DNA from: Candidatus Bathyarchaeota archaeon
Lineage (GTDB): Archaea > Thermoproteota > Bathyarchaeia > Bathyarchaeales > Bathyarchaeaceae
Direction of reading: 5' to 3'
NCBI GenBank assembly: GCA_030615265.1
Contig: JAUWZP010000003.1
Coordinates: 1-49,923, forward strand
Length of the DNA: 49,923 nucleotides
The number at the start of each line of letters is the position of its first letter. Position 1 is the first letter of the stretch. The notes under the pieces are model-generated. The model ran no database searches, was not told where the DNA came from, and saw nothing but the letters and a program-made list of their open reading frames with translations. Below, piece after piece: positions 44,119 through 44,497 of the stretch. The translations under genes were made by a program, and so were the position numbers.

Positions 44119-44336
44119 TGGTCGGGCGAGCAGGACTTTCATGAAGTGAAACCTTCATTTTGAATTCGCCGAGCTGAGGTTAAGTCCTCGCAGCTCTCCT
44201 GCGACGCTCCGGTTTCTGTTGTGCGCTTGGCGGCTGATGCGGCATCCACCAAGACGGCAGACGTCTACAGCGTCTCCACCAGTCTAAGTTTTGGTCAGAC
44301 TGGTTCGGAAGCACTACCAAGCTGAGCTACCGCCCG
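44119..44336 (-). tRNA. tRNA-Tyr (GTA) with four predicted introns and encoded CCA
   Basis: On the minus strand the 5' acceptor CGGGCGG (44336-44330) pairs with TCGCCCG (44129-44123), followed by discriminator A and CCA (44121-44119). TA, D-arm GCTC-AGCTTGGTA-GTGC and T26 follow. Removing 44305-44272 (34 nt), 44264-44214 (51), 44197-44165 (33) and 44158-44136 (23) leaves exactly 74 nt. These give anticodon stem TCCGG/CCGGA with loop CTGTAGA (anticodon GTA), variable GCGTC, T-stem GCAGG/CCTGC and loop TTCAAAT. C1-G72 and A73 fit archaeal tRNA-Tyr. Each removed piece can fold as a hairpin. Exact splice points are not proven; an alternative anticodon stem AGACG/CGTCT shifts introns 1 and 2. Confidence 0.82.
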
Positions 44337-44497
44337 ACCTGAGATTTTACAAAGAAAACTTAATGATTTATGCGTTTCGATAGTTTTCCGTCAAGAGAGC
44401 AATGAATTTAATTTCGAAGTTTTCTTAGACATAGCCCAATAAGGCTCCAAATAGAATCCTAACAGAATTAAGCTTTGAGATAGGTTGGCTTTTCAAA

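Follow-up and report, generated by a model that had tools for sequence, protein, structure and literature searches.

Can one archaeal tRNA gene carry four introns? The question was raised by the window, the whole 49,923-nt stretch of DNA that we analysed, which is contig C44 of MAG G000 (1.86 Mb in 119 contigs, 96% complete, 3.5% contamination). The original prediction placed a four-intron tRNA-Tyr(GTA) gene at 44119–44336 and held that default tRNA finders would miss it. Searches of the window with ARAGORN and with Rfam RF00005 returned the neighbouring tRNA-Ala only; both missed the tRNA-Tyr gene. Since two standard finders overlook it, the numbers of tRNA genes counted in Bathyarchaeia are probably affected.

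The predicted span was correct, but the gene lies on the minus strand, with its 5' end at 44336 and its CCA end at 44119. It has five exons (31, 7, 16, 6 and 17 nt, the last including the CCA) separated by four introns, whose lengths (34, 51, 33 and 23 nt) and hairpins had been given exactly. The insertion sites (30/31, 37/38, 53/54 and 59/60) also held, except that only one intron falls within the T-loop instead of two: intron 3 sits at the border of the T-stem and T-loop. Each intron has a bulge-helix-bulge (BHB) site, that of intron 3 being relaxed. The features are as follows (^ marks a cut):

44367–44372, minus strand: CATAAA, a TATA-like promoter element lying 36 nt before the 5' end of the tRNA
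44306–44336, minus strand: exon 1, positions 1–30 (acceptor 5' strand, D-arm, anticodon stem 27–30), matching the consensus of the orthologues apart from A23 to T
44272–44305, minus strand: intron 1, at 30/31, 34 nt; central helix CTTC/GGAG (C25–C28 pairs with GGAG), bulges CG^A and AC^G, inner helix ACCAGTCT/AGACTGGT
44265–44271, minus strand: exon 2, positions 31–37, 7 nt, carrying the anticodon GTA
44214–44264, minus strand: intron 2, at the canonical site 37/38, 51 nt; central helix CTGT/ACAG (C32–U35 pairs with ACAG), bulges AG^A and AA^A
44198–44213, minus strand: exon 3, positions 38–53 (anticodon stem 3' strand, variable loop, T-stem 5' strand)
44165–44197, minus strand: intron 3, at 53/54, 33 nt; relaxed BHB CGCA/GGCG (C48–A51 opposite GGCG, with an A-G mismatch), bulges GG^A and AA^T (AA^U in RNA), inner helix GAGCTG/CAGCTC
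44159–44164, minus strand: exon 4, positions 54–59, TTCAAA, 6 nt
44136–44158, minus strand: intron 4, at 59/60, 23 nt; central helix TTCA/TGAA (U54–A57 pairs with UGAA), bulges AA^A and AG^T (AG^U in RNA), inner helix TGAAG/CTTCA, outer helix formed by the T-stem (49–53/61–65)
44119–44135, minus strand: exon 5, positions 60–73 plus the encoded CCA

Excision of all four introns left 77 nt, that is, 74 nt plus the encoded CCA. ARAGORN called this spliced sequence Tyr(gta) and found no gene in the unspliced sequence. Across the 16 possible combinations of intron removal, Tyr(gta) was called only if introns 1, 3 and 4 were out, the removal of intron 2 being optional. The 74-nt product was thus exactly as expected, but the accompanying claim that every stem is paired failed at U12-U23, a mismatch in the D-stem; the acceptor stem has a G7-U66 wobble. 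A TATA-like hexamer started between −50 and −28 in 66 of 91 orthologous genes, versus 2.4% of random segments of the window.

We searched for the tRNA-Tyr gene first in 61 relatives and afterwards across 257 class genomes, 222 of which gave matches; 94 orthologues were parsed from regions around most of the better matches. Introns 1 and 2 alone were present in 51 of these genes, all four introns in 18, intron 2 alone in 12, introns 1, 2 and 4 in nine, introns 2, 3 and 4 in two, and introns 1, 2 and 3 in two. All six combinations gave near-identical mature tRNAs, and ARAGORN reported Tyr(gta) in 91 of the 94 parsed genes. Intron 2 was present throughout. Intron 1 was missing in 14 genes, where the junction reads CTTCCG^GCTGTAG, and intron 3 was missing in most; the junction reads GCAGG^TTCAAA without intron 3 and TTCAAA^TCC without intron 4 (^ here marking the joined ends). 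The boundaries of introns 1, 3 and 4 in the window are the exact junctions in relatives that lack these introns. Because there are orthologues precisely without each non-canonical intron, chance is excluded, and the presence of four introns in one tRNA-Tyr(GTA) gene is borne out by these genes together with the spliced ARAGORN call.

The 63-nt T-loop could be counted as a single insertion, which would leave three true introns. Just 6 nt separate the two T-arm pieces, and genes with intron 3 usually have intron 4 too. This count is contradicted by two genes (G049 and G052) that have intron 3 without intron 4, and by nine orthologues that have intron 4 without intron 3. At the expected junction, these single-intron alleles keep the 6-nt TTCAAA exon or one much like it, and each T-arm piece has a BHB site of its own. 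We give the three-intron count almost no credence and retain four.

Four-intron genes were found in at least 20 genomes of six families (f1, f3, f7, f9, f10 and f18), a count made up of the 18 parsed genes plus G016 and G187, which were both read by eye; the strict double-T-arm-intron pattern alone was present in 11 of the 257 class genomes. Their occurrence in so many genomes and families indicates a conserved gene state. The gene does go beyond the three introns given in the accessible papers, as had been proposed, but it is not a one-off. Genus g25 includes genes with no T-arm intron, with either one alone, and with both. The combinations of presence and absence at three sites make a natural system for the study of tRNA intron gain and loss, even within this genus.

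We compared the BHB sites across these genes. In the window, introns 1, 2 and 4 have the full 4-bp central helix and 3-nt bulges, with cuts two nt into each bulge. The central helix of intron 1 had 4 of 4 pairs in 79 of 80 genes, the exception being a mis-split parse of G134, and that of intron 2 had 4 of 4 in 92 of 94 orthologues. For intron 4, at least 3 of 4 pairs were kept in 28 of 29 genes (the exception, G187, was mis-split). The relaxed helix of intron 3 kept at least 3 of 4 pairs in all 22 genes and reached the full 4 bp in eight, as CGCA/TGCG, CGTC/GGCG or CGCT/GGCG; full pairing comes from UGCG on the opposite strand in six of these orthologues and from C51 or U51 in the other two. 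Inner helices were preserved with differing sequences between lineages; for intron 4 the variants were ATGAAG..CTTCAT, ATAGGAG..CTCCTAT, ATGGAGG..CCTCCAT and ACGGG..CCCG. Folding of the junctions, which had been put forward as a check, agreed in part: complementarity was present at all four, but minimum-energy folds of the isolated junctions recovered the BHB only partly, and the central helix of intron 4 was absent from the minimum-energy structure. The BHB argument thus rests on comparison among genes.

The copy in the window differs from the consensus of the 94 orthologues by three changes in the mature tRNA: A23 to T, T45 to C and C66 to T. The first breaks the U12-A23 pair of the D-stem and produces the U12·U23 mismatch; A23 is found in 93 of 94 orthologues and T23 only here. 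The third produces the G7-U66 wobble. The change at position 23 could be a base error in the MAG or a sign of early decay. One may then suppose that the locus is a decaying or misassembled tRNA-Tyr pseudogene with intron-like insertions, the real tRNA-Tyr lying in the missing part of the MAG, and the mismatch, the two further changes, and the unclosed state of a genome that is 96% complete are all in keeping with this. Against it, the same four-site structure with intact exons is shared by 19 or more further genomes from six families, the four-intron genes of G028, G134, G135 and G166 have exact consensus exons, and BHB pairing is kept with different sequences. A second intact tRNA-Tyr(GTA) gene, which the original prediction counted among the points against it, was looked for in the genome and none was found: the window DNA matches a single place, and there is one copy of the Tyr T-arm/acceptor 3' end. 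A pseudogene is highly improbable on these grounds. In our reading this tRNA-Tyr copy works, perhaps with one base in error, and the claim of four introns is independent of this particular copy.

The genome encodes two EndA proteins, L055 (185 aa) and L056 (191 aa), and RtcB. L055 has both EndA domains, and among solved structures it comes closest to catalytic EndA chains from crenarchaea (2cv8 and A. pernix 3p1z). Its segment YGKPIGIPKPK contains a lysine aligned with K44 of A. pernix, followed by a proline and a basic residue (P-K). The broad specificity of EndA has been tied to K44/R46 features of the A. pernix enzyme (PMC6379350, PMC12397907), and a splicing endonuclease of the type able to cut a relaxed BHB is thus predicted from the gene content. 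L056 has a threonine at the position of the catalytic histidine and is probably a structural EndA subunit. Reasoning from these genes and from the known archaeal pathway, a heterotetrameric (alpha-beta)2 EndA would remove each of the four introns at its BHB site, and RtcB would ligate the exons. We consider it very probable that the locus is a single working tRNA-Tyr(GTA) gene whose four BHB introns are cut and whose exons are joined in this way.

Some exon bases would be needed at more than one splice site. The possible outer pairs of intron 1 use positions 32–33, bases that would also form the central helix of intron 2; the outer helix of intron 2 would need 27–31 to be contiguous, hence the prior removal of intron 1; and introns 3 and 4 would both need U54. 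Because these bases are shared, removal of the tRNA-Tyr introns is probably ordered, with at least some steps sequential.

Intron 2 contains an element complementary to the D-arm:

44314–44322, minus strand: D-arm segment GCTTGGTAG (G15–G22), with which the intron 2 element can pair
44225–44233, minus strand: CCGCCAAGC within intron 2, the anti-D element (9 nt, complementary to the D-arm)

Between the two, seven or more of the nine pairs form in 88 of the 94 orthologues, and all nine in 76. Variants of the D-arm were matched by the element: position 17 and its partner were C-G in 34 genes, T-A in 52 and T-G in two. Reassignment of D-arms among genes lowered the summed score from 2717 to 2339 ± 32, and none of 2000 shuffles reached 2717, in a test that left kinship among genes uncontrolled. 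Twenty Tyr genes sampled from other families of Thermoproteota had an 8 or 9 of 9 match downstream of the anticodon, and the element was also found in Tyr introns of other classes of that phylum, indicating that it is old. A device required for intron 1 was considered and rejected, as the element is present where intron 1 is missing and in other classes. Our guess is that it holds the D-arm open in the precursor; a covarying D-arm complement in the canonical Tyr intron hints at a role of the intron in precursor folding. In the window, the element can alternatively pair within intron 2, as the hairpin CTTGGTGG/CCGCCAAG.

Intron 4 was identical at 23 of 23 nt in eight genomes of three families (G000, G016 and G017 in f1; G134, G135, G150 and G166 in f7; G189 in f9):

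44136–44158 of the window, and L002, L003, L046–L049 and L102: loci with the identical intron 4

Introns 1 and 2 of the seven parsed genes in this set had pairwise identities of about 0.36–0.84, the lowest values for intron 1 coming from pairs with G134, for which that comparison split introns 1 and 2 wrongly. An 18-mer from intron 4 occurred only at Tyr genes, in 8 of the 257 class genomes. Congeners often lacked T-arm introns or had different ones (G010 versus G017; G040 and G190 versus G189; G008 versus G016). In G017 and G189 both flanks of the gene matched those of congeners, and introns 1 and 2 of G189 were nearest to those of G040 and G190. An identical intron 4 amid diverged introns 1 and 2 suggests lateral spread of the T-arm introns, and the simplest reading of these sequences would be replacement of the T-arm in place.

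The four-intron alleles themselves might be chimeras, made when assemblers joined strains where the tRNA sequence is conserved. Most of the genomes are MAGs, intron 4 is the same across families, and the 3' flank of a four-intron Tyr gene in G135 (contig C66, L092) is like that of G006, a member of another family, so that this contig may be mis-binned. Chimeras would have to account, however, for four-intron alleles in f3, f9, f10 and f18 that are distinct and carry intron 3 and 4 sequences of their own, for the congener-like flanks on both sides of the gene in G017 and G189, and for joining at a conserved stretch that is only 16–17 nt long downstream of intron 4. We regard a chimeric origin of the four-intron alleles as extremely improbable and keep to a true four-intron gene. 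G135 also has a second Tyr gene (C21:3494), which runs off the contig end.

A fuller scheme can be offered tentatively, though we think it less likely than not: both T-arm introns may move laterally between Bathyarchaeia families as one cassette that replaces the resident T-arm, while the duplex of D-arm and canonical intron would keep the tRNA body open so that the T-arm and anticodon-stem splice sites form. If this is true, an open tRNA body could explain the build-up of introns in tRNA-Tyr.

Three further ideas were rejected. For a viral source of the T-arm introns, neither the intron 4 region nor the intron 3 pattern occurred in any IMG/VR contig. For integration into the window's tRNA-Tyr, no displaced intron-less 3' end was present in the window or the genome. 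For a homing endonuclease as general driver of intron spread, the one candidate was a LAGLIDADG-like ORF in G166 (contig C9, L090); it has no relative near Tyr at the other examined loci, and we do not offer it as a general cause. That contig (4672–4885 and 11192–13385) holds a complete four-intron Tyr gene and later a ParB-like gene and a second Tyr copy that lacks the first ten bases, the ORF lying between this damaged copy and an isolated intron-less Tyr 3' end. The arrangement looks like the remains of an insertion at tRNA-Tyr.

Archaeal tRNA genes have been described with up to three introns each (PMC8450103, PMC4033280, PMC4390854, PMC3293823). A literature search mostly outside subscription papers found no relevant earlier report of four in an archaeal tRNA; judged from accessible papers, the gene exceeds the published archaeal maximum by one. 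The known number per gene is thereby raised from three to four, in a state common to several families of a large class. Multi-intron tRNA genes are known from Thermoproteales (Pyrobaculum, Thermofilum) through Sugahara et al. 2008, as cited in PMC8450103 and PMC3218864. As far as those citations convey, the present gene resembles them in its several small introns at canonical and non-canonical sites, its BHB or relaxed BHB junctions and, as read from the genes alone, an (alpha-beta)2 EndA with the crenarchaea-specific loop; it differs in having four introns where their maximum is three, in belonging to a different class, and in being kept across several families. The original prediction had named Thermoproteales as the known case; the host here is one of the Bathyarchaeia, an uncultured archaeal group: 11 of the 12 named relatives of an L13-like ribosomal protein encoded near the tRNA-Tyr gene are from Bathyarchaeota/Bathyarchaeia, and the twelfth and weakest is from Desulfurococcales.

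The tRNA-Ile(UAU) of the red alga Cyanidioschyzon merolae likewise has introns in several arms, including the T-arm, but is eukaryotic and has three (PMC9602550). At the tRNA-Thr locus of Caldiarchaeum, intron gain and splitting occurred in one population (PMC3293823). Recent gain or loss among near relatives is common to that locus, where mobile elements were proposed, and to ours; unlike it, tRNA-Tyr shows no splitting, and the same T-arm introns recur in different families with flanks unchanged. Sharing wider than vertical descent predicts also recalls the tRNA intron transposition of Thermoproteales, so far as Fujishima et al. 2010 is represented in PMC8450103. In contrast to the transposition outlined there, the exact intron 4 stem-loop occurred only at tRNA-Tyr among the 257 class genomes, a spread between species at one site and not between isoacceptors.

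Some further observations concern the tRNA genes of G000. ARAGORN typed none of the genome's Rfam matches as a Trp, Phe or Asn tRNA and left two untyped; more interrupted tRNA genes probably remain undetected there. Contigs C104 and C119 both hold a tRNA-Ile(GAT) and tRNA-Arg(TCG) pair, which points to mixed strains or to a duplication in the MAG. Lastly, the 5' leader GGT of the tRNA-Tyr gene (44337–44339) could base-pair with the discriminator and the first bases of the CCA (44119–44122), adding three pairs to the acceptor helix, and this leader recurs in many tRNA-Tyr orthologues.
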